Positions 6,412-18,299 of a DNA stretch of 64,000 nt are shown piece by piece. The stretch covers positions 1 to 64,000 of the forward strand of contig MU129055.1 in assembly GCA_014904985.1 (NCBI GenBank), in the 5' to 3' direction. Under the pieces are notes generated by a model. That model was not told where the DNA came from. It ran no database searches and saw only the letters and a program-made list of their open reading frames with translations. The position numbers were made by a program, and so were the translations under genes. Origin of the DNA: Hydnum rufescens UP504. Taxonomy: Eukaryota > Basidiomycota > Agaricomycetes > Cantharellales > Hydnaceae. Every line of letters starts with the position of its first letter. Within the stretch, counting starts at the first letter, position 1.

Positions 6412-8350
6412 GTGTCTATGCCTATGCCAACTCAGTCTTCTCATAATACCCCATCTGATCAGTCACTGCAGTCAACCTTCCAAGGGCAGACTCTCAGATT
6501 TTCGAAATGCCTGACATCCAAACTAAAGTCCACAACGGCTCATACCAAAGTGAGGTCCAAGGCTGGGGAGAAAGATCCAACAGCCTCAAAGTTTGCAGTG
6601 CATGGAGTGACTTCTGGGAGGGATAAGGTTGGATATTCTTGAAATGGGTCTCCAAGTCTTTCCTTGACCAGCCATGACATTCATTCCTCCCTTCCCATTC
6701 TGAGTCTCCACCCATCTAAACCCATTGTGGACTCGGCTTCTAACCCCCTCCAACCTCCTCTCACTGAATCTAAAAATGCTGCAATGTCAATCTCAGCTCG
6801 AAATTCTAGCAATCAATTGACTTCAATATCACAGTCAACCTCAAAATCTGCCCTGCCTTCCCTGGAACATACCAAGGATTGTGGGGTTGATGTCAAGGAC
6901 TTGCAGATGTTCTGGGGTGATGATTATATCATGGCAAACACAATGTTAGGCATTGAGAGCTCAGGATCTGATGCTGATGCTGATTGGGACCCCGCAATAT
7001 CTACTGGTGGCAAGGACCTAAGTGACAGAGAACACTTCAGTGATGCCAATAGTGCCAAAGATGTTCATGTGTGATCTATGGGCAAAGAGCCCAGCCCTGT
7101 GTGCTCAGTTGCCAAGAAGGCCTCTCCTGGGCCTTGTGGACATGGAGGTAGATTCTTGCAAGCTCAGTTGGACGAGGTTGAAAAGCATGCTGAACTGTTC
7201 CAGGGTGCAATGGCTAGCTTGGCCAAGTTGTGGGGCTGTCATATTTCAATACTATATCGAGTGGCTAAAGTGGCAGGAGCTCTGAAGAAGCATTGATGAC
7301 CAAATGCTTGGAATTCGTTTCAACATCAACAAAAGAAGTTGAAGAAGACCCCCTCTGGTCTCAGTGTGTAGGTTTAATATTTGTTGCTCTACTCATTTTC
7401 TGATGCCTTATATAGGAAAAGGAGGTGCAATCATATGTCAACACCTTCAGCCAACATATGTCAAGCTGTGAGCTTGGGGGGCCCAGTTCTGAGGCCTGGC
7501 ATGAGCATTGCAATACCCTTATAGACAATCTCAGTACAGAGAAAGCATCTGATACAGCTTGTATTGCCATGTCTGGAGGTGATGTGGCCCATCAGATGGC
7601 CTTATCCTGATCAAAAATTGATAGTGAGGTATGTACTATTCTACATATTTATTCATTCTGTGCTACATGGGCTAACATGCTGATGTCTAGGGACAGGCAC
7701 TTCATCAGATCAGGGTTCATCTCATGTACTTGATGGTGTTGGACCTCACCTCCTCAACAGCAGCACATGGCCAGAACTCAATTAACTTCAACAGTGAGGA
7801 ACTAAGGGCATGGGTGGACCATGAATGGAATTCTCATGACACTCCTGAAATGAAGAAACCCTTGCCTCACTGATACATATATTCTAGAGTGAAAGGGGGT
7901 GGCTGAAGACCTTGTTAAATTCCACAAGGATCAGGATGAGGCTACTTGCACTAAGGAGATGAAGGATCAGTACACCTTATGGAAGGCTGTCTCAGCAGAT
8001 TTATGAAGGATGCTTTGTATGTATCCTTTGAAAGATCCACTGTTGAGATTTCTCATGAACCTACCTCATGTCTCAGGATCACTGCAATTGGACTACAAGA
8101 CTATGCCCTGGTCATTGATTGTTCAGAAAATGAGGTTGTCATGAATCTGCTGTGTCTGTTGGCCAGATGTTGAGGGTATGCCTTTGCTTGGCACATTTGG
8201 TTTGGATGACCTCAAGACACATCATTGGCGACTGCTTTATGATGCGATACACTCTACTGATGTGTTCACAACTCTCTGTTTTGAATGAATTAGTGACTAT
8301 GGTATGTCCTACCATTATAGTATTCTTGGATTTGATTACTGAATGGTTTT
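6412..8350 (+). other. degraded CpG-poor transposon sequence, no clear gene
   Basis: Plus-strand open segments (6664-7074, 136 codons, Ser/Asp-rich; 7022-7296; 7979-8173) look like pieces of a multi-exon protein with acidic and Ser-rich linkers. No domain is recognisable and frames shift often. TG/CA dinucleotides are abundant and CG very rare. Several intron-like GTATGT...AG intervals can be imagined but not proven. Confidence 0.3.
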
Positions 8351-8955
8351 TTGGTAGACCTGGGTGATGATGATATCCTAGTCACTGGGATGAACAATGT
8401 GCCATTGCTCACTGTGTGGCAGGCAGAAGGCCTCCAAAAGGGGAAGAAGCATAAGATAGTGGAGGCTGAGGTTACTGATGAGCATGCCAACAAAGGGTCT
8501 GGGTCAAAGGTTCTGCAAGTGGTTCCACCTTCTGTTTCCAGCAGGCTGAAGCCAGCAAAGAGGAAAGGGAAAGGGAGACTAACCCTAAAGTCCCTCCCTT
8601 ACATTGATGATGCCTCTGATGTGCCTGTGACACCTGCAATTTCAGTCCATGAACCTGAACCATCTCTATCAAACTCATCTTTGCCTGAGACAATGCCAAT
8701 TCCTACAGCCTTGCCAACTCCTCTGACAGACACAGGAGTTAATCCTTTCAGCTCAAAACCTGGCTCAACACCATCATATTTTCCATCATCTCTTCTTCCA
8801 CCTTCGTCCACTCTTCTGCCTTCAACCAGTCTTCCACCTTCAACCACTCCTCCACCCTTGTCCACTCTGCCTCTGTCATCTACACTCCTCCCATCATCAA
8901 CTTTTCCACCATTGTCTACTTTTCTGCCATCTACTTTTCCATCATTGTCAGCCTG
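8351..8955 (+). pseudogene. Pro/Ser-rich ORF, interrupted by the foldback element
   Basis: The frame at 8351 opens with a mixed-composition stretch (GDDDILVTG near the start, a KKHKIVEAE basic/acidic patch, RLKPAKRKGKGR). It ends in a degenerate 18-bp-type minisatellite encoding (P)LSTFLPSTF-like Ser/Thr/Pro repeats. The repeat stops at about 8949 and resumes at about 13,954 with the same peptide pattern. This indicates that the 5-kb element between was inserted into this reading frame. Function unknown. Confidence 0.55.
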
Positions 8956-9110
8956 GTCAGCCAATTATCAGTATCTAATTAGATACTTTGAAGGTTGCAT
9001 TTATATGCTCTAACTATATATCAGACCTGGGGGCCCCCAGGGGCCCCTGCAATTCAGTCGAGGGGGCTGGTCAAGCAGCCCAGGGGCCCCTGGGGCCCCT
9101 AGCCATTAGG
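8956..9110 (+). repeat. left inverted terminal segment of foldback element
   Basis: It begins GTCAGCCA, then ATCTAATTAGAT, then TTGCATTTATAT, CTCTAACT and two GGGGCCCC-containing blocks. The same order of motifs is found inverted at 13,800-13,946. The two ends are diverged, but their landmarks align along about 145 bp. Confidence 0.75.
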
Positions 9111-9116
9111 ATTATT

Positions 9117-9168
9117 GATTTATTATTTATTTATTTATTTATTTATTTATTATTATTATTATTATATA
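9117..9168 (+). repeat. (TTA)n/(TTTA)n tract, left outer end
   Basis: A TTATT microsatellite. On the minus strand, the proposed reading direction of this half, it is a (TAA)n tail after the last module. All three module arrays in this window end in such a tract. Confidence 0.85.
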
Positions 9169-9175
9169 CAGTACA

Positions 9176-9269
9176 CTAGGCTCGCCCAGTGGGGCTCACC
9201 CATGCACCCAAGAAGAGCAGCCACAGGCTGCTCTTCTTGCGCACTTGGAGCAAAATGGAAAATGCATAC
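9176..9269 (-). other. module L5: intron-like segment, degenerate
   Basis: Donor GTATGC follows AAG, and a CCTAG acceptor is possible, but no ACTAAY branch motif is present. The hairpin at 9209-9239 has arms CAAGAAGAGCAGCC and GGCTGCTCTTCTTG. A preceding exon-end hairpin has GACCACCCCTGC / GCAGGGGTGGTC-like arms near 9280-9300. Confidence 0.5.
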
Positions 9270-9435
9270 CTTAAATGACCACCCCTGCCACAGCAGGGGT
9301 GTGCTTGCATGGGATCCTGTTCATGCGTTCATGTGGCCTCATTTGCCTATTTGCATGGGGCCCAGTGTGCATGTCTTGCGGGGCTTATTCAGGGGTTCGC
9401 ATGGGTTCCTGTCCAGGGGGAGGTTATTTTGTCAC

Positions 9436-9534
9436 CTAAAATAAACAATGTGTTAGGTAAATGTAATAAAGCACAAGAAGAGCAGCCCATGGCTGCTCTT
9501 CTTGCGCGATTGTAGCTCCAGAAAAAAAACTTAC
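9436..9534 (-). other. module L4: intact intron-like segment with hairpin
   Basis: Minus strand: CAAG|GTAAGT donor, CCTAAC branch motif, TTTTAG acceptor, 99 nt. Hairpin at 9471-9507 with arms CAAGAAGAGCAGCC / GGCTGCTCTTCTTG. Confidence 0.7.
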
Positions 9535-9713
9535 CTTGAGAGTACCACAGACCCACCACAGCAGGTGTGTGGTACTCACACGTTCGCAGTTTCGTTCATG
9601 GGATTTGGTTTCACAGGGTGGGTTTGGGGTCGTGGGGCTTCGGGTCATGGGTTTCGGTTTGCGGGGTTTCAGGTTGCGGGTTTGCTGTTGGGGGTTCGTG
9701 CAGGGTTCAAGAT

Positions 9714-9822
9714 CTAGAAAATAAAGGTGTTAGTTATTAAACATTAAAGCATCGCAAGAAGAGCAGCTTACGCTGCTCTTCTTGCACCACAAAAATAAAT
9801 AAAAAATAAAAGATAAACTCAG
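9714..9822 (-). other. module L3: intron-like segment, donor mutated
   Basis: Minus strand: AAG|CTGAGT where GTGAGT is expected, ACTAAC branch motif, TTTCTAG acceptor, 109 nt. Hairpin 9754-9785 uses the CAAGAAGAGCAGC stem. The donor change should stop splicing here. Confidence 0.6.
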
Positions 9823-10063
9823 CTTGGAGTACCACACACCTGCTGCAGCAGGTGTGTGGTTTCATTGGCTCTGCATCGTTTTGTGTCTTCAGTGTGGTCC
9901 TTCGCGCGTGGTGTTCATTTGGCGTGTGGCCTTCAGCACGTGGGTTACCGTCTAGCGGGTGTCCATGTGGTGCGCAGTCGTTTCGGGGGGCTCGGGGTTC
10001 ATTTGGCGGGTCTTTACTTGGCGGGCGTGTGTTCCGTTTGTTGGTTGTGGGTCAGCCGACAAC

Positions 10064-10164
10064 CTGGAAAAGCAGATACATTAGTTAGAAATTAAAACCA
10101 GCACAAAAAGAGCAGCTTTCGCTGCTCTTTTTGTGCGGCTGTATCGATTTGGGGGAGAACTCAC
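10064..10164 (-). other. module L2: intact intron-like segment with GAAA-loop hairpin
   Basis: Minus strand: AAG|GTGAGT, CTAACTAAT branch region, TTTTCCAG acceptor, 101 nt. Hairpin 10101-10136; on the reading strand the stem AGCAGC/GCTGCT closes a GAAA (GNRA-type) loop. Confidence 0.7.
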
Positions 10165-10468
10165 CTTATATAGTACCACACACCCACCGCAGCGGGTGTG
10201 TGGTCTCTGGTTCACTCATTGGGCGCGTCTGGTGCATTGGGCACGTTCTCATGTGTTGTGTCCTCATGTGTCGCGTCCTCGGTGTGTTGCGTCCTCATGT
10301 GTTGCATTCTTGTGTGTCATGTCCTCATGTGTCGCATTCTCGTGTGTTGCGTCCTCGTGTGTCGCGTTCTTGTGTGCTGCATTCTCGTGTGCTGCATTCT
10401 TTTTCTTGCGTTTCTGTTTGGGCCAGCATCGTTTGACGAGGCCCGCCATGCCTTGACCAGGTTGTGAT

Positions 10469-10586
10469 CTAGAATAATAAAGACAATAAAAGATATGTTA
10501 GTAAAAAATCTAAAGGAGTGCAAAAAGAGCAGCAGCGGCTGCTCTTTTTGCGCATTGTAGCTACTACGATAAAAAAAGAAACTCAT
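10469..10586 (-). other. module L1: intron-like segment, donor mutated
   Basis: Minus strand: AAG|ATGAGT (GTGAGT expected), ACTAAC branch motif, TATTCTAG acceptor, 118 nt. Hairpin 10520-10551 with arms CAAAAAGAGCAGC / GCTGCTCTTTTTG. The preceding exon-end hairpin lies near 10592-10625. Confidence 0.6.
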
Positions 10587-10692
10587 CTTATATGACCACA
10601 CACCCACAGCAGCGGGTGCGTGGTCATCTGCTTCCCTTTTCAGGCGGTTGCCCTGCTTCCTTTTCTGGGCAGTTGCAGTGGGTGGTTGTTGT

Positions 10693-11376
10693 GGTTGTGA
10701 AGAGAACGCAACTCAACGCCGGCAAATGCCAGCACTCAAAAAGCGCCCAAGTCTCATGGCCACAAGCACAATATAAATTAATAGCAAGCACCTAGACATG
10801 TTCTAAATACTAAATAATAAATATTTATCCAAAAATGCAAAAGAAGATAACAATAATAAGTTAGGGCTCAATAAGGCACGATAGGCCTATATTATAAAGT
10901 GGATTGGGCCACTTCTATAGGTCAGAAGTGGCCCAAATTTAAATATATTGTGGGTATATGTTCCCCTACGTGGGCGACTAATTATACCAGGTGTTCCTTC
11001 CATTTTTCAATTTTTCACACCTTCAATTCCCTATTTAGGGAATTGAAGGCATGAAAAATTGAAAAATGGAAGGAACACCCAGTATAATTAGTCGCCACAT
11101 AGGGGGAACATATACCCACAATATATTTAAATTTGGGCCACTTCTGACCTATAGAAGTGGCCCAATCCACTTTATAATATAGGCCTATTGTGCCTTATTG
11201 AGCCCTAACTTATTATTGTTATCTTCTTTCGCATTTTTGGATAAATATTTATTATTTAGTATTTAGAACATGTCTAGGTGCTTGCTATTAATTTATATTG
11301 TGCTCATGGCCACAGGACTTGGGCGCTTTTTGAGTGCCGGCATTTGCTGGCGTTGAGTTGCGCTCTCCGCAACTGC
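10693..11376. promoter_or_regulatory. central palindrome, candidate divergent promoter
   Basis: The two halves are reverse complements with about 14 differences over about 345 nt by eye (roughly 96%). The exact centre is a perfect 13+2+13 core at 11021-11048 (CTTCAATTCCCTA / TAGGGAATTGAAG). Each half also carries its own internal hairpin (TTGGGCCACTTCT / AGAAGTGGCCCAA) and AT-rich runs such as TAAATATTTAT and AATATAAATTAAT. It sits exactly where both module arrays would start, so I infer a bidirectional promoter. A recombination or replication role for the palindrome itself is an alternative. Confidence 0.55.
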
Positions 11377-11457
11377 GCAGCCACACACCGAACAGACAAC
11401 TGAGAGAGGCAAGCCAATGACCACACACCCACAGCAGTGGGTGTGTGGTCATGTAAG

Positions 11458-11568
11458 GTGAGTTTTTTTTTATTGAAGCAGATATGCTGGCGCAAAAAGA
11501 GCAGCGAAAGCTGCTCTTTTTGTGTGGCTTTGAATATCATTACTAACATTATTCTTTTATTATTTTAG
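11458..11568 (+). other. module R1: intact intron-like segment, GAAA-loop hairpin
   Basis: AAG|GTGAGT, ACTAAC, TATTTTAG, 111 nt. Intron hairpin 11490-11524 with a GAAA loop. Exon-end hairpin 11419-11450 (GACCACACACCCAC arm). Confidence 0.75.
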
Positions 11569-11763
11569 ATCATGGCCTGGTGGCTCAAAAGAAAAACCAG
11601 CCAATGATGAGGGCCGAACGGTCAGGGTCCAAATGACAATGCGCCAACCAAATACACAACAAACAAAAAGATGCCAAACGATGCCATGACAAGTGAGAAC
11701 GCGCCCACTGAGTGACCACGCGAACCACACACCTGCTGCGGCGGGTGTGTGGTTCTATGTAAG

Positions 11764-11864
11764 GTAAGTCCATCGTGCACCTCTAATAGCCCAAAAAGAG
11801 CAGCCAATGCTGCTCTTTTTGGGCTGGTTTTAATTTTTAACTAATATATCATCTCTTATTCTAG
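11764..11864 (+). other. module R2: intact intron-like segment with hairpin
   Basis: AAG|GTAAGT, ACTAAT, TATTCTAG, 101 nt. Hairpin 11788-11825 extended to AGCCCAAAAAGAGCAGC. Exon-end hairpin 11723-11754. Confidence 0.75.
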
Positions 11865-12024
11865 ACCATCGCCTCAACCACAAGAAACCCCCGCCAAATG
11901 AACCCCCTCCCCGAAACAACAACCTGCATGCCACCCCCGAATCGTAACCCACCGAAACCGTGCCAGAAGACCACGAGAGCCACAAGAACCACGCACCTGC
12001 CAAAGGGGTGTGTTGGTTTTCAAG

Positions 12025-12132
12025 GTAAGTACTTACCGTCACACAAAAGGAGCAGCCTAGGCTGCTCCTTTTGCATGGCTTTTCTTTTTTATTTATTTTG
12101 GCTCTCAACTAACGTTTGATTTATTATCGTAG
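12025..12132 (+). other. module R3: intact intron-like segment, compensated stem
   Basis: CAAG|GTAAGT, ACTAAC, TATCGTAG, 108 nt. Hairpin 12044-12074 has arms CAAAAGGAGCAGCC / GGCTGCTCCTTTTG: an A-to-G change in one arm is matched by T-to-C in the other. Confidence 0.75.
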
Positions 12133-12284
12133 GTTGTCCGTCTGTACCCACAACCCGCACAAACCGCAAATCGAAAACCCCCAACCCGCCAGACAAAACC
12201 TGGGAACAGGGATGCACAACACAAGACACCAGAAATGCCAGATGGAACCACACACCCACTTTGGCGGGTGTGTGGTAATACTAG

Positions 12285-12368
12285 GTATCTCTAATCCCAC
12301 CAGTGCCAAAAGAGCAGCAGAAGCTGCTCTTTTGGCACCTCTGTTTTCTTTTTTTTACTGGAAACAAG
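12285..12368 (+). other. module R4: intron-like segment, 3' end truncated
   Basis: CTAG|GTATCT donor. The hairpin 12303-12338 is well formed (GTGCCAAAAGAGCAGC arm), but the branch motif is lost (TTTTACTGG) and only a weak ACAAG acceptor follows. Exon-end hairpin 12246-12276. Confidence 0.55.
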
Positions 12369-12441
12369 GCGTATACCACGCACTGAGAACGCCCCAAATG
12401 AACCACACACCCGCTGCGGCAGGTGTGTGGTAATATATAAG

Positions 12442-12542
12442 GTAAGTAAATGTAGTGTATGCAACTGCGCAAAAAGAGCAGCAAATGCTGCTCTTTTTGT
12501 GCTGGTTATGATCTCTTACTAACATATTATCGATTTTTCTAG
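12442..12542 (+). other. module R5: intact intron-like segment with hairpin
   Basis: AAG|GTAAGT, ACTAAC, TTTCTAG, 101 nt. Hairpin 12468-12501. Exon-end hairpin about 12400-12431 with arms ACCACACACCCGC / GCAGGTGTGTGGT. Confidence 0.75.
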
Positions 12543-12730
12543 GACATTGCCTGAACCAGAACCCACCAAATGAACGCACACCAAACGAACCCCCCCCTCC
12601 CAAACAACCAACCACTGAATGAAGGCCCACCAAACGCAACCCGCCAAATGAGACCCACCAAGTGAAGACCCGCCAAACGAATAACCACATAAACCACACA
12701 CCCGCTTCGGCGGGTGTGTGGTAATACAAG

Positions 12731-12838
12731 GTATGTTTTTATTACTGTAAATACAGTGGCACAAAAAGAGCAGCAAAAGCTGCTCTTTTTGCGCTGCTTT
12801 GAATCATTGATACTAACATATCTATTATTTTAAACACG
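12731..12838 (+). other. module R6: intron-like segment, acceptor lost
   Basis: CAAG|GTATGT, ACTAAC, then TATTTTAAA where TAG is expected. Hairpin 12758-12794. Exon-end hairpin about 12693-12722 has a CCGC-TTCG-GCGG loop closure, a UUCG-type tetraloop. Confidence 0.6.
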
Positions 12839-12977
12839 CCCACCAAACCAGAGGCCAAAACACGACATGCCAAGAACACCCCCTGGACAAAACCCAGTAA
12901 CAGGAATGCATGGCACGAGGCTGCGGGGGCCCCGAACGAACCACGCACCCACTTCAGCGGGTGTGTGGCAATATTGG

Positions 12978-13077
12978 GTGAGTTTTCGAGTACAGTATGG
13001 CGCCAAAAGAGCAGCATCAGCTGCTCTTTTGGTGTTGTCTTTGGTTTTTTTTTCTTTACTAACGTCTTATTATCTAG
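12978..13077 (+). other. module R7: intact intron-like segment with hairpin
   Basis: TTG|GTGAGT, ACTAAC, TATCTAG, 100 nt. Hairpin 13000-13034 uses the CCAAAAGAGCAGC / GCTGCTCTTTTGG stem type. Confidence 0.75.
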
Positions 13078-13218
13078 GTACCTCCACTGCGCAATACCCC
13101 ACCCGATGAGGTTTGAGACGAATATGAACATGCGCAGCTGCCCGGACCCCAGATCTGCATGACACCGAACTAAATATGGTACCACACACCTGCTGCAGTG
13201 GGTGTGTGGTAATACCTG

Positions 13219-13327
13219 GTAAGTTATCAATTACAGGACGTACGACAGCGCCAAAAGAGCAGCAGAAGCTGCTCTTTTGGCGCTGCCTCTTTTGTTTTCT
13301 TTATTAACATATTATTTACCGATCTAG
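13219..13327 (+). other. module R8: intact intron-like segment with hairpin
   Basis: CTG|GTAAGT, TTAAC branch-like motif, GATCTAG, 109 nt. Hairpin 13247-13284 extended to AGCGCCAAAAGAGCAGC. Its first 30 nt closely match R9, pointing to recent local duplication. Confidence 0.7.
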
Positions 13328-13452
13328 GTGCCTTCTCCCTCCCTGCGTGAAAAACCCCCACACGAAATACGGAGGCATAGCCCCTGACAACTGCGCCTGA
13401 GGGCCCAGCCCTCAAACACCTGCAACTGATGTGACCCCGGGCAAAGCACCTG

Positions 13453-13561
13453 GTAAGTTCTTAATTACAGGACGTACAAGGGGCCAAAAGAGCAGCTTCT
13501 GCTGCTCTTTTGGCCCCCCTTGTTTTCTTTTTTACTAATGTATTATTATTTGTTGTTCTAG
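13453..13561 (+). other. module R9: intact intron-like segment with hairpin
   Basis: CTG|GTAAGT, ACTAAT, TTCTAG, 109 nt. Hairpin 13480-13518 extended by GGGG/CCCC flanks. No ACCACACACC hairpin is seen in its upstream exon, unlike most other modules. Confidence 0.7.
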
Positions 13562-13650
13562 GTCCCCTCCAGAAAATCATGCCAGAGATGGGCTGGGCAG
13601 CAGTCTGATTCCCAATTGGGAGTGAGGTGCATGATAAGGGGAGGATATGT

Positions 13651-13654
<4 letters not shown>

Positions 13655-13687
<33 letters not shown>

Positions 13688-13688
13688 C
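13655..13688 (+). repeat. (TAA)n tract, right outer end
   Basis: About ten TAA/TAAA units after the last module of the right half, mirroring the tract at 9117-9168. Confidence 0.9.
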
Positions 13689-13799
13689 ATTATAAACAAA
13701 ACACACCACCCCAGAGGGGTATGTAAGAATAATACTACAGTGGTGCAGGAGAGAGCCCTGGTTGAGATCTATAAGTTGGAGCTTGGTTTGATGTGTGAA

Positions 13800-13946
13800 G
13801 TCCCACACAGGGGCCCCTGGGGGCCCCTGCCTGAATCACGGAAATCAGGTTAGCCGGCCCCAGGGGCCCCTGCTATCAAAACCTCTAGTTAGACTATATA
13901 AATGCAAGGCTTGTAATATCTAACTAGATATACATTTGTGGCTGAC
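13800..13946 (-). repeat. right inverted terminal segment of foldback element
   Basis: Reverse-complement counterpart of 8956-9110. Read on the minus strand it gives GTCAGCCA, ATCTAGTTAGAT, TTGCATTTATAT, GTCTAACT and then the GGGGCCCC-rich part. Confidence 0.75.
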
Positions 13947-13953
13947 TGAGTTG

Positions 13954-14135
13954 ATCATTGTCCACTTTTCCACCATTGTCCACTTTTCCCCTGTCATCTA
14001 CTTTTCTGCCATTGTCCACTTTTCCATCATTATCAACTTTTCCATCATCATCAACTTTTCCATCATCAACTTGTCCACCATGGTCAACTTTTCCTCCACC
14101 CTCAATGCTTGCTCCAGGCAAAAACTAACTATTTG
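13954..14135 (+). pseudogene. resumed Pro/Ser-rich minisatellite ORF
   Basis: Continuation of the repeat interrupted at 8949. One plus frame reads repeated STFPPLSTF / LPLSTFPSLSTF motifs and ends at a stop near 14127. Unit about 18 bp (TCCACTTTTCCACCATTG and variants). Confidence 0.55.
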
Positions 14136-14545
14136 ACTGGGATGATGTCATTCAGACTATACACACTCAATATTCATACCAGGGTTCAGTCAGTTAGCCA
14201 CTACAACTGCTACCTTGGGATGACCTGGTCTTGATTGACTCCATGATAAACTTAATAAATAGATCCTCTTATAATCTGGTTTGTATATAATGATGGCAAT
14301 CCCTATATATATGCTTAGGCCAAAGTCTCCATTGGGGCCCCTTGAGAAGTAGGCCTACTTAGATTCAAAGGGCAATGGACCAAAGAACAGTTTGAAAGAG
14401 TGGTGTTAAGCCTATATATGGCTTTATATCCATCAAGGTGCTGAAATACAAAGGTCACTGAAAACACCCCTTGGGGCCCCAATGATCCAAAGCCTGCTTA
14501 GGCCCAAATAGTGCCATGTTTTTGGGCCTAACTAGGGCTGATTTT
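14136..14545. repeat. inter-element sequence with a 0.2-kb inverted repeat
   Basis: At about 14310-14512 a TTAGGCC...AAAG...ATTGGGGCCCCTT arm is mirrored by CCTTGGGGCCCCAAT...CTTTGG...GCCTAA, flanking about 120 bp. It resembles a small foldback or MITE-like element. The rest of the stretch shows nothing I can assign. Confidence 0.5.
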
Positions 14546-14649
14546 GTGGCTGACCAAGGTGTGCTGCTGTTGCTGTTGCTGCTGCTGTTGTTGTGTCGTG
14601 GTCATGCCATCACATTTCTGTTGCTGGGTGTGGCTGTGTAGTTGCGAAA

Positions 14650-15064
14650 TTCAATGCCAGCAATTGCTGACACTTGAGAAGTGCCCAAGCACTGGCACTG
14701 CAAGCACAGTACACAATAGGAACAAGCATGTATATTTAAAATAAATACTATATAATAAATATTTGCCAGGAAAACCTGAAGAAGCCAATGATAATGAGTC
14801 AGAGCTCAATAAGGCATGAGATGGCTAATTGCAGAGTGGATTGGACCAATTCTGATGTGTAGAAATGGCCCAATCCACTCTGCAATTAGCCATCTCATGC
14901 CTTATTGAGCTCTGACTCATTATCATTGGCTTCTTCAGGTTTTCCTGGGCAAATATTTATTATATAGTATTTATTTTAAATATACATGCTTGTTACTATT
15001 GTGTACTGTGTTTGCAGCACCAGCACTTGGGTGCTTCTTGAGTATTGGCAATTGCTGGTGTTGA
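14650..15064. promoter_or_regulatory. palindrome of second copy, candidate promoter
   Basis: Reverse-complement halves centred at about 14857, where the GTGGATTGG / CCAATCCAC hairpin forms the turn. Flank sequences (CTCAATAAGGCA, AATAAATATTT, CACTTGAGAAG) are homologous to the palindrome at 10693-11376, but the innermost part of that longer palindrome is missing here. Confidence 0.6.
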
Positions 15065-15164
15065 ATCTACATCTTGTTTCCCATCTCCACAACCACAACA
15101 AGCAGCCACCCAAAAAGGCAAGCACATGACCATGCACCCACCACTGTGGGTGTGTGGTCACAAG

Positions 15165-15269
15165 GTGAGTGTTTTGTCAAGTAGATACAATGGCGCAAAA
15201 AGAGCAGCGAAAGCTGCTCTTTTTGCACTCCTTTGACTCTTTATACTAACATTTCCTGTATTATTCTAG
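15165..15269 (+). other. module S1: intact intron-like segment, GAAA-loop hairpin
   Basis: CAAG|GTGAGT, ACTAAC, TATTCTAG, 105 nt. Hairpin about 15193-15228 with a GAAA loop. Exon-end hairpin GACCATGCACCCAC / GTGGGTGTGTGGTC just upstream. Confidence 0.75.
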
Positions 15270-15370
15270 ATTGAAGCCTGAGGTCCAAGGCATGATGAAA
15301 ACCTGAAAAACGAGGACCCAGACAGCAGCATGCCAAAAAAATATGTGCAAACAACACAACACACAGCAAC

Positions 15371-15602
15371 ACACCACACAAAGACACACCACACAAAGAC
15401 ACACCACACAAAGACACACCACACAAAGACACACCACACAAAGACACACCACACAAAGACACACCACACAAAGACACACCACACAAAGACACACCACACA
15501 AAGACACACCACACAAAGACACACCACACAAAGACACACCACACAAAGACACACCACACAAAGACACACCACACAAAGACACACCACACAAAGACACACC
15601 AA
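15371..15602. repeat. 15-bp minisatellite ACACAAAGACACACC
   Basis: About 15-16 nearly perfect copies inside the exon-like segment between S1 and S2. Long ORFs on both strands are repeat artefacts. Confidence 0.95.
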
Positions 15603-15683
15603 ATGATGCACCACATGGCAACATGCCAAATGAGGGCCCCAGAACCACATACCCGCTGCGGTGGGTGTGTGGTACTACATAAG

Positions 15684-15790
15684 GTGAGTCCCCAACCCCC
15701 AGTAAATACAACTGCACAAAAAGAGCAGTGAAAGCTGCTCTTTTTGCACTGCTTTCGAACTTTTTACTAATGTGTCTTTTATTATTCTAG
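15684..15790 (+). other. module S2: intact intron-like segment with hairpin
   Basis: AAG|GTGAGT, ACTAAT, TATTCTAG, 107 nt. Hairpin 15714-15749. Exon-end hairpin of CCGCTGCGG type at about 15641-15675. Confidence 0.75.
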
Positions 15791-16046
15791 CTGTGCCTTC
15801 ATCCAATGCATGACATACCCATGAAACAACCAGAACCCAAATGCCAACATGACATGCCAATGTGACATGCCAATGCAACACAGCAATGCAACACGCCAAT
15901 GCAACATGACATGCCCACACACCAATGACATGACATGTGGCACTGTGCCAAATGAGGACATGACCATGCCAAACAAGGATGCAACTGCACCCAATGCAGG
16001 CCCCAGAAATCACACCCACCCTGGCAGGTGTGTGGTCCTATATAAG

Positions 16047-16155
16047 GTGAGTCCCCATCCCCCCCTGTAGCTACACCCATGCAAAAAGAGCAGCCAAAGC
16101 TGCTCTTTTTGCATGGTGTTTAACTCTTAACTAATTTAAAACTCTTATCCTTTAG
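16047..16155 (+). other. module S3: intact intron-like segment with hairpin
   Basis: AAG|GTGAGT, ACTAAT, CCTTTAG, 109 nt. Hairpin 16078-16114 extended to CATGCAAAAAGAGCAGC. Confidence 0.75.
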
Positions 16156-16315
16156 GTCTCAACTTCCCTTGCAAACAAATACCAACATGAGCCCCCCCCT
16201 GCAACCCCATTTATCAACACCTGAACAATGGGGCACAGAGAGGACCTGTATGTATGACCCAGAATATATGGCCCCAGTACCCCACACTCCCACAGTGGGT
16301 GTGGGGTACTACAAA

Positions 16316-16431
16316 GTATGTTTTCTTTTTTATTTTCACTTCTTGTTCTTGTGGCACAAAAAGAGCAGCATAAGCTGCTCTTTTTGTGCTGCATTACTGT
16401 TCTACTAATGTTTCATCAATTATTTCTTTAG
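16316..16431 (+). other. module S4: intact intron-like segment with hairpin
   Basis: AAA|GTATGT, ACTAAT, CTTTAG, 116 nt. Hairpin 16354-16391 (GGCACAAAAAGAGCAGC arm). The exon-end hairpin has changed to CCCACACTCC / GGGTGTGGGG-like arms. Confidence 0.7.
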
Positions 16432-16666
16432 GTCCTGAACCAGAACCCCCACAAACCCCCAAATATGAACCCGCCAAATGAGATGCTGCAAACAATAACC
16501 ATGAACAAGCCCCCACAAATGAAAACTGACTCCCTTGAGGGAGTGCCCAAAGGGAACTGGCCCCTGACTGGGGGTGTATGGGTATGTGCAGATGCAGGTG
16601 CATAACCCACATGAACCATCCACCCCCTGTGGTGGCAGACCCCTTGGGGGGGGGGGTAATATGTAT

Positions 16667-16742
16667 ATAGTGTAATATGTATATAATAATAGTAGTAATA
16701 ATAATAATAAATAGTAAACAAATAATAATAAATAAGTATATA
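16667..16742 (+). repeat. (TAA)n-rich outer end of second copy
   Basis: ATAATAATAGTAGTAATAATAATAATAA-type microsatellite after the last module, matching the position of the tracts at 9117-9168 and 13655-13688. Confidence 0.8.
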
Positions 16743-16819
16743 ATCTAGCACAGCCATGGATTGGCTGACAGATGGCCCAAAAACTGAATTGGAATGGCCT
16801 GATTTCAGCCGTAAGGTTT

Positions 16820-16877
16820 GGGGGACCTATTAGGTACCATTTTCTGCCCTGAAAGTGGTACCTAAATTAGGTCCCCC
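16820..16877. repeat. short inverted repeat
   Basis: GGGGGACCTA..TTAGGTACCA is mirrored by TGGTACCTAA..TTAGGTCCCCC around a loop of about 17 nt. Possibly the end of another small element; no function is apparent. Confidence 0.6.
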
Positions 16878-18299
16878 ATGTGACTGACCAGCCTGAACTA
16901 CTTATACTTCTAGAGATCAAAAGGGTTTATGAATAAAGGGATGTTGAATAAAAGGAGGGATGTATATAATAGGAAATGCTGAAAGAGGAAGGCACAATGG
17001 CAGTGAGGGGAAAGGCCATGTGATGATGCAATATGCTTGGTTATTTGTATGTAAGTGAGGTTACGAGTACAACTTGTAACACCTGCCTTGTGAGTGCTAT
17101 GATGCCTGCCAAATTGCAAGCTGAGTCTGCAGCAGGATGCTCTGCCCAACCTTTATCAAATAGGAATCATGCCCATGAAGCCAAGGGGGTGCACGTGATC
17201 AAATCTGGGAACATAGGTACCCCCCCCCCCCTCTGGGGACCCTAAATACTTTTTTTGACCTCATTTTAGGGAGTCACTGGGGGAACTTAGGAATGCTTTA
17301 TGAGGCTTCTGGATAGTTTTAAGCAGTAATACATTGGTAATCAAGCTGCAGGTGATAACCAAGGTCACACTTCTACCCTTTGCCACCTATTTAGCTGCTA
17401 ATCCCCATCCACAGACCTGTCTGTCTTCAGTCCTGTTGACCAGTATTGCAATTTTGGGTCACTTGACCTCTTAGTGGCATTTCATGTTGGAATTGGGGGA
17501 CAGGCAACTCATTGCTTAGTCAGCATCATCCTCATATAGTGTCTCAGGATGTACCAAACCCTTGTTAGCCTGAGCTCTGATTGTTGCATGAATCCTCAAG
17601 TGATCCTTCAACATTTGGACACCCCTCCACCCAGTCAGAGCCATATTCATTGACCTAGAATAGAGACTTGAATTTGGTTCCTGGAGAAAATAGAAATGAC
17701 ACGCACTCTGAGGTCAAATAATAATGCCATTCTTCTTTTTGGTCATTGATATGGCAGTCCTAGGCAGATAAGAGACTTGCTGGTGATAAAAGTGATGCCC
17801 GCACAGTCAGGTCATGTGCCAAGTTCTCACGGGCTAAATTAATGCCTATATTTGGTCTTACATCCGTTACGTCCGTATATCCGCCTCGGCTCTGACAGAT
17901 ATAGGCAGATTTAAAGGGTACCCCCCTTCAGGTCTTAAGTTCATAATTCGACCTGAGTTCCATTTGATTCCTTACACCCCCTTGCATGAAGCTTAATCTC
18001 ACCAATGATGATGCAGAATGAGTGGAAACAAGCTTGCCTTTTACCTCAAGCCTCCAAGGCAAATTTCTGCCACTTCTTTATGCTTCATCAATCCACATGC
18101 ATGAGCTTAATGCTTAGTCAGCACTTGTTTCTTGGGTTCTCTCCACTGGCACCCTCTGATCTGCTGTTGTTGCATGAATCTCTTGGCAAAGTATGGTTGA
18201 CACTTGATCCAGAAGGCACAGAGTGATTTTCCAGTGATGTATATATGTTTTATTGTTACATACAGATATTTGACTTGAGTTGACTTTGAGTCAAGTCGA
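16878..18299. other. non-coding, composition changes here
   Basis: No supported gene. CpG is rare up to about 17.8 kb and becomes common beyond it, marking the edge of the CpG-poor transposon block. Confidence 0.5.

Follow-up and report, generated by a model that had tools for sequence, protein, structure and literature searches.

Several described systems each share a part of the design reported here. Foldback-type elements (FB, Galileo, Tm1) have inverted arms built of tandem modules and can fold back, and transposable element-derived long non-coding RNAs are non-coding transcripts from transposons. Non-autonomous Zisupton/KDZ transposons of fungi have CA...TG ends and 8-bp duplications; according to PMC12730594, Zisupton makes 8-bp and Kyakuja 7-bp duplications. 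Introners are short, repeated, structured introns spread by a mobile element, and DNA-transposon signatures are described for them in PMC9860276. Here we describe an element that resembles each of these systems in some respects, located at positions 8949 to 13953 of a 64,000-nt stretch of DNA (the window, at its full length) from Hydnum rufescens UP504, a hedgehog mushroom of the Cantharellales, whose assembly comprises 63.2 Mb in 539 contigs.

The element differs from each of these systems as well. With non-autonomous Zisupton/KDZ transposons it shares the 8-bp duplication, the CA...TG ends and a 15-bp terminus common to KDZ transposons of the same genome, but no transposase remnant was seen in it, and two hairpin-bearing units of serial introns surround a homogenised palindrome. 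As in Foldback elements, the inverted repeats are made of tandem subrepeats, the modules being inverted about the centre; however, the arms share modules and palindrome rather than their full sequence, carry putative spliceosomal introns and end in KDZ-like termini. Whereas an introner is one intron in a host coding gene and uses the element ends as splice sites, here the splice sites are internal, and the introns are serial, with exons of their own and a putative promoter. Unlike in transposable element-derived long non-coding RNAs, one design with its start in a palindrome, its introns, its hairpins and its signals resembling poly(A) signals recurs here from copy to copy, and its transcription is presumed. 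In the open-access literature, as distinct from subscription papers and Repbase, we found nothing of this design under foldback elements with introns and hairpins, introners, tetraloops or spliced non-coding elements. The available part of PMC7550596, on Hydnum rufescens transposable elements, contains no such element, and an unnamed consensus of the family may exist in a repeat library. The homogenised palindrome arms, the T-poor exons, the GNRA/UNCG-type loops and the hairpins over the landing site of the exon junction complex (EJC) are new here.

We find it rather probable that the element is a non-autonomous KDZ-type transposon whose interior would consist of two back-to-back non-coding transcription units and would not be a deletion remnant. 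This estimate covers four steps jointly. KDZ transposase from other elements would recognise CAGCCTGGTCAGCCA and insert the element with an 8-bp duplication. The same promoter would lie on both sides of the palindrome, kept alike by conversion between the arms. Judging from polarity and signals, RNA polymerase II would run outward through both arms to AATAAA-rich tracts near the ends. Finally, splicing would remove the serial introns, which measure about 105 nt and each hold a stem-loop placed between their donor and their branch site, giving U-poor, A/C-rich non-coding RNAs. Masking of EJC sites, treated below, stands outside this estimate.

The limits of the element and the features near its ends are as follows.

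8949..13953, no strand: whole non-autonomous element; most end copies begin or stop at these bases
8941..8948, no strand: left target-site duplication, ATCATTGT
13954..13961, no strand: right target-site duplication, ATCATTGT
8949..9118, no strand: left terminus, beginning CAGCCTGGTCAGCCA, with GC-rich subterminal palindromes (40 scored of 292 first-look candidates); the 15-mer is common to KDZ 3' ends
13724..13953, no strand: right terminus (reverse complement beginning CAACTCAGTCAGCCA), with GC-rich subterminal palindromes (40 scored of 368 first-look candidates)
9112..9165, minus strand: A-rich run with repeated AATAAA reading outward, candidate poly(A) signals
13651..13690, plus strand: A-rich run with AATAAA reading outward, candidate poly(A) signals

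The window element is thus bordered on both sides by a perfect 8-bp duplication, and such duplications were found in five of the 11 two-ended copies (the window copy and those at loci L013, L018, L023 and L030). Once joined, its flanks form a 259-residue stop-to-stop frame across the insertion point, which argues that the element was inserted into an older open frame. The interrupted frame (window 8336-14125) bears 18-bp (six-residue) repeats on both sides of the element.

KDZ transposons of the same genome carry this terminus, CAGCCTGGTCAGCCA, at their 3' end. Four of these ends, among those listed, have a KDZ domain 1.5-1.9 kb further in, and 17 of the 19 non-self full-length matches to one KDZ 3' end stop at most 3 bases from the shared terminus (40 scored of 153 candidates). 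The open reading frame inside one such element is KDZ by Pfam (E 1.6e-50; KDZ with CxC1/CxC2 clusters). NCBI models of Hydnum rufescens UP504 match a KDZ protein of this genome with an identity of up to 99%, over 53% of the query. As the 15-bp terminus is common to KDZ 3' ends, we read the element as non-autonomous KDZ. The exact 15-base terminus occurs 389 times in the genome, KDZ ends included, and the reversed-pattern control 0 times. KDZ transposase domains are very abundant genome-wide (584 first-look candidates, 150 scored).

No transposase of the element's own was found in L029-L033, nor was one seen in any copy read. A DDE-like open reading frame in L029 was rejected as the element's transposase, as it sits in a nested insertion (L029 3499-6633) lying inside an intron of the copy, flanked by TA and having inverted ends of its own of about 25 bp; a Pfam search with a piece of this frame gave nothing at E 0.1. 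Matches to KDZ and hAT-dimer close to element ends were likewise rejected as element genes, those inspected lying outside the elements by orientation. Sequences of the hAT-dimer type exist in the genome and none was seen inside the element ends, though the search was not systematic. The terminus of hAT transposons is YARNG, so that hAT, which would fit the 8-bp duplication, is contradicted by the termini CAGCC and CAACT.

The earlier note on this DNA, made from the letters of the window, had placed the element between 8956 and 13946. It is real, and more regular than was claimed there, with the limits corrected to 8949 and 13953. The description as a foldback is fair for its shape, while the mobility class is best read as KDZ (Zisupton-like) and not as the Foldback family. 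That it is a non-autonomous mobile element is borne out by the five duplications among 11 copies, 275 palindrome centres, the lack of a coding signal and the one terminus shared with KDZ.

Genome copies were counted by the hairpin stem, as had been suggested there. The intron-type stem AAAGAGCAGC-loop-GCTGCTCTTT has 3685 exact matches in the genome, and the 22-base palindrome centre has the 275 exact copies mentioned above, the reversed-pattern control giving 0 in both cases. At least about 39 further palindrome copies were found among 40 scored of 1296 candidates. The loci read were the window element, 20 loci of 8-10 kb, L029-L033 and one 801-base locus. A search of viral contigs with one exact hairpin gave 0 matches.

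The signals in these copies read outward. A donor, branch site and acceptor on one strand accompany 184 of 247 such hairpins; at random positions in these loci the figure is 85 of 880. Polarity was counted in 13 of the 26 element loci, namely those whose centre and one or both ends are known; the other 13 hold several elements or lack a known end or centre. There, 136 of 150 intron-type hairpins have outward splice signals, 0 have inward ones and 14 are ambiguous. Among the 279 oriented introns, 275 match the donor at 6 or more of nine positions and the branch site at 5 or more of seven, a further 38 hairpins being not orientable. A-rich runs close both arms of the window element, and within the terminal 700 bp of each arm in 11 elements AATAAA occurs 85 times outward and 30 times inward.

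Two arrangements of the family elsewhere in the genome may be mentioned. At G000:C187:38893-39329 (L033 2928-3336) a right and a left end are separated by about 12 bp in a head-to-tail arrangement, as is seen with tandem insertions. Two ends of the left type, at G000:C16:257725 and 262373, are oriented towards each other across 4.6 kb and may form a hybrid element.

The arms of the window element consist of 14 outward-reading modules, five on the left and nine on the right. A module starts with an exon, most often closed by a terminal hairpin (ACCACACACC...GGTGTGTGGT); next come the donor, the hairpin of the intron (CAAAAAGAGCAGC...GCTGCTCTTTTTG), the branch site and the acceptor. The best splice consensus is AAG/GTRAGT for the donor, TACTAAC for the branch site and YTAG for the acceptor. 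The predicted introns are listed below, together with their use in the NCBI gene model BS47DRAFT_1365833, which lies on the right arm.

11458..11568, plus strand: right intron 1, complete, with a GNRA (GAAA) hairpin; exact match in the gene model
11764..11864, plus strand: right intron 2, complete; the gene model takes the acceptor with another donor
12025..12132, plus strand: right intron 3, complete; exact match in the gene model
12305..12336, plus strand: right module 4, hairpin; branch site and acceptor lost; unused in the gene model
12442..12542, plus strand: right intron 5, complete; the gene model takes the acceptor with another donor
12731..12838, plus strand: right intron 6, acceptor AG lost, 3' limit approximate
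12978..13077, plus strand: right intron 7, complete
13219..13327, plus strand: right intron 8, complete
13453..13561, plus strand: right intron 9, complete
10469..10586, minus strand: left intron 1, donor GT now AT
10064..10164, minus strand: left intron 2, complete
9714..9822, minus strand: left intron 3, donor lost (AAGCTGAG)
9436..9534, minus strand: left intron 4, complete
9208..9240, minus strand: left module 5, hairpin; branch site and acceptor lost

Complete introns of the window copy measure 99-111 nt; the median is 107 nt in the signal-based scan and 121 nt by a looser pattern. The intron stem-loop begins about 31 nt past the donor and ends 18 nt ahead of the branch site (medians), and it would cut the effective intron length from about 107 to about 65-70 nt. 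Two other gene models, aligned to related copies, agree at introns 1 and 3, or at 3. As the NCBI models may be ab initio, they offer weak support for splicing. The earlier note described inverted ends, a palindrome at the centre, modules numbering five to the left and nine to the right, signals resembling splice sites and two classes of hairpin, and all of these are present. Each junction predicted there (11457/11569, 11763/11865, 12441/12543 and 13218/13328 on the plus strand; 10165/10063 and 9535/9435 on the minus strand) fits a donor and an acceptor. The statement that every module has donor, branch site and acceptor holds in nine of 14 cases and fails for right modules 4 and 6 and left modules 1, 3 and 5.

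Between the two arms lies the palindrome.

10702..11367, no strand: central palindrome with 332-bp arms and a 2-nt spacer, putative bidirectional promoter

The palindrome of the window element spans 666 bp, its arms being 94% alike. We compared arms in six elements from four subfamily groups, with arm types judged by eye on the basis of the flanks. Within an element, the two palindrome arms show a likeness of 96.0% (92-99%), whereas between groups it is 79.6% for the same arm type and 79.3% for the other type. Just outside the palindrome, left and right are 75.8% alike within an element, and the values between groups are 78.5% (same type) and 75.3% (other type); this small same-type excess in the flank is partly circular, as the types were set from the flanks, while the palindrome result is not circular. 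Since the likeness within elements is confined to the palindrome, its arms seem to be homogenised in each lineage, and two distinct, presumably transcribed arms are kept. The homogenising process would be conversion between the arms. The conserved core holds CCAAT-, TATA- and CT-rich stretches and may be read as a promoter shared by both directions. In L010 (C7, near 462700) the arms are alike well beyond the palindrome, unlike in the other aligned copies.

Twelve intron clusters were formed, and 10 were used after two without a recognisable consensus had been dropped. Pooled pairwise mismatch was 0.026 in stems (a value flattered by the hairpins having been found by resemblance), 0.157 in the donor, 0.161 in the branch site and 0.119 in the acceptor, as compared with 0.367 in the rest of the intron and 0.405 in the loops; the preceding exon end, which bears the exon hairpin, gave 0.212 and the following exon 0.514. 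Splice signals were less variable than the rest of the intron in eight of the 10 clusters. Stem pairs covary: among 206 unique sequences, A-T to C-G exchanges number 44 at one position and A-T to G-C exchanges number 13 and 25 at two others, with shuffled pairing clearly lower. In the six closest copies about 90% of the difference rate falls in CpG, TpG and CpA contexts (0.0535 falling to 0.0055 in the exon and other class), and this CpG-type decay appears to be a sign of cytosine methylation of the elements.

The loops favour the outward strand. GNRA and UNCG are the two classic families of stable RNA tetraloops. Among 238 unique four-base intron loops GNRA occurs 64 times and its reverse complement 0 times (12 expected from loop base composition), and among 139 four-base exon loops, from 226 unique exon hairpins, UNCG occurs 37 times and its reverse complement 3 times; many other loops are one CpG-type change away from GNRA or UNCG. 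G-U pairs outnumber A-C pairs by 211 to 93 over the stems with four outer pairs, much of this being driven by one frequent, perhaps ancestral, G-U pair. In the core stem the ratio is 28:15 (p 0.07). With duplicates removed, it is 34:18 in the intron core (p 0.036; event proxy 26:16, p 0.16) and 51:33 in the exon core (p 0.063; event proxy 48:32, p 0.093), that is, a weak excess. Two exon hairpins fold with z-scores of -5.4 and -7.0, and two introns with z-scores of -4.5 and -4.4. Outward-strand T makes up 6-24% of exons in 16 arms (6-16% in 11 of them) and 35-40% of introns.

Several points weigh against reading the element as a KDZ-mobilised pair of spliced transcription units. Six of the 11 two-ended copies have no 8-bp duplication, and the KDZ left end with its duplication was not found in L034 (partly masked), L035 and L037, so that one end carries the case for shared mobilisation. 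Decay has reached the window copy, in which only nine of 14 introns are complete, and BS47DRAFT_1365833 fully agrees at only two of its five introns. Splice signals descend by duplication, hence module counts are not independent; in two of the 10 clusters these signals are no less variable than the remaining intron sequence, and the pooled mismatch rates are dominated by a single cluster with 124 members. Because the stems contain no CpG, their recent conservation is no proof of selection, and only the deep comparison speaks for constraint. Shared ancestry makes the loop and G-U counts non-independent as well, and they may reflect a few ancestral states. The reverse strands tested fold about equally well (z -5.9, -4.6 and -3.9), so energy alone gives no polarity. 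The earlier note had proposed two divergent, heavily spliced non-coding RNAs, and such RNAs are what we infer too: sequence evolution and outward polarity fit the proposal, while transcription and splicing are deduced here from DNA sequence alone.

The second hairpin class lies at the ends of exons.

11420..11449, plus strand: exon-terminal hairpin, right exon 1 (families D4/D5)
11724..11753, plus strand: exon-terminal hairpin, right exon 2
12247..12276, plus strand: exon-terminal hairpin, right exon 4
12402..12431, plus strand: exon-terminal hairpin, right exon 5, C(UGCG)G loop
12693..12722, plus strand: exon-terminal hairpin, right exon 6, C(UUCG)G loop, -27.6 kcal/mol, z -7.0
12940..12969, plus strand: exon-terminal hairpin, right exon 7
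13181..13210, plus strand: exon-terminal hairpin, right exon 8
10595..10624, minus strand: exon-terminal hairpin, left exon 1
10175..10204, minus strand: exon-terminal hairpin, left exon 2
9831..9860, minus strand: exon-terminal hairpin, left exon 3
9544..9573, minus strand: exon-terminal hairpin, left exon 4

Some exons have no such hairpin, e.g. right exon 9 of the window copy. From 294 oriented exon hairpins, 60 with more than 4 mismatches and 26 with no donor in range were removed, which left 208; a further 68 could not be oriented. Orientation relied on a nearby donor, and donor presence is thus partly selected, whereas donor distance is not. The 3' foot of the hairpin lies 3-12 nt from the exon end in all 208 (6-10 nt in 204), and its centre mostly 21-25 nt upstream of that end. 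Positions -20 to -24 are covered in 208 of 208, and -12 to -33 in 206.

The EJC loads 20-24 nt upstream of a splice junction, and the host genome encodes Mago-like exons, Mago being an EJC core protein. A many-intron non-coding RNA would be expected to attract nonsense-mediated decay strongly, and a hairpin at each landing site would lower its marking. A stable hairpin at most exon ends would thus cover the EJC site, and the many-intron RNA might look like a normal host transcript while staying unmarked for decay. That the exon hairpins mask EJC loading, and so spare the spliced RNA, is the likeliest purpose we see for them, but it is a guess and a doubtful one. The wider picture, in which one self-homogenising palindromic promoter drives two divergent RNA genes, introns buy host-like splicing and hairpins at the EJC sites of most exons separate splicing from junction marking and let the RNA escape decay or silencing, seems unlikely as a whole. 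We know of no mobile element described as exploiting EJC placement.

The same hairpins might instead act in trans, their identical repeats in exons and excised introns titrating a host protein (one that binds double-stranded RNA, the spliceosome, debranching or RNA interference factors) and so protecting the family. It is the stem sequence that is constant, not pairing alone, the 3685 stems are exact, and Piwi-domain sequences are present in the host genome, all of which would suit such a role. Stems of 13-18 bp are short for Dicer, though, there is no sign of RNA abundance, and window 8900-18000 has no Rfam family at gathering score, the strongest matches there being miRNA families placed on the two central palindromes by shape alone. 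We regard a role in trans as unlikely.

It is quite improbable, in our estimate, that the element works as DNA only, with palindromes that bind proteins or form cruciforms in transposition or replication and with splice-like motifs carried along idly. On one hand, the intron stems are near-perfect palindromes, and homogenisation of the long palindrome within lineages is a DNA-level process. On the other hand, a DNA site does not need strict outward polarity, splice signals kept above their surroundings in eight of 10 clusters, T-poor exons next to T-rich introns, wobble pairs retained at outer stem positions or stable RNA tetraloops on the outward strand.

Still less probable is an origin of the modules as introners piled up inside an older foldback element. 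Every intron is short, similar and hairpin-bearing, as this would predict, but what recurs is an exon together with an intron, the exon hairpin keeping an almost constant spacing, and the one seemingly isolated hairpin that was checked adjoins a palindrome of the family.

We find it hardly credible that two protein-coding genes with repeated exons have decayed here, as the at least three NCBI models of 168-192 residues on family elements might suggest: in 18 of 18 arms spliced in silico (10 elements; two arms with fewer than three recognised introns dropped) no open frame went beyond those of 100 exon shuffles, internal exon lengths are evenly spread modulo 3 (26/24/24), and BS47DRAFT_1365833 omits parts of exons to hold its frame.

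The window also holds a second, more diverged member of the family (14644-16400), whose palindrome at 14644-15064 is 71-74% identical to the first one; hairpins lie at 15202, 16088 and 16363, and no termini were recognised. A near-perfect 15-bp tandem repeat of 16.5 copies (15354-15601) adjoins its palindrome.

To return to the probable KDZ-type transposon with two non-coding transcription units, non-autonomous DNA transposons are commonly regarded as passive debris between two ends visible to a transposase. Here the interior keeps a precise RNA-level design even between subfamilies whose sequences differ by about 20% or more; this implies that a non-coding transcript matters for cut-and-paste success. 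With its many copies, the family would offer a natural setting in which to study why a transcript evades surveillance more easily when it is spliced, whether RNA structure at the EJC site is put to use in nature, and by what means long, near-perfect palindromes are homogenised in a eukaryotic genome. An element that has no protein and consists of serial putative introns and hairpins suggests a transposon built for making spliced, structured RNA.

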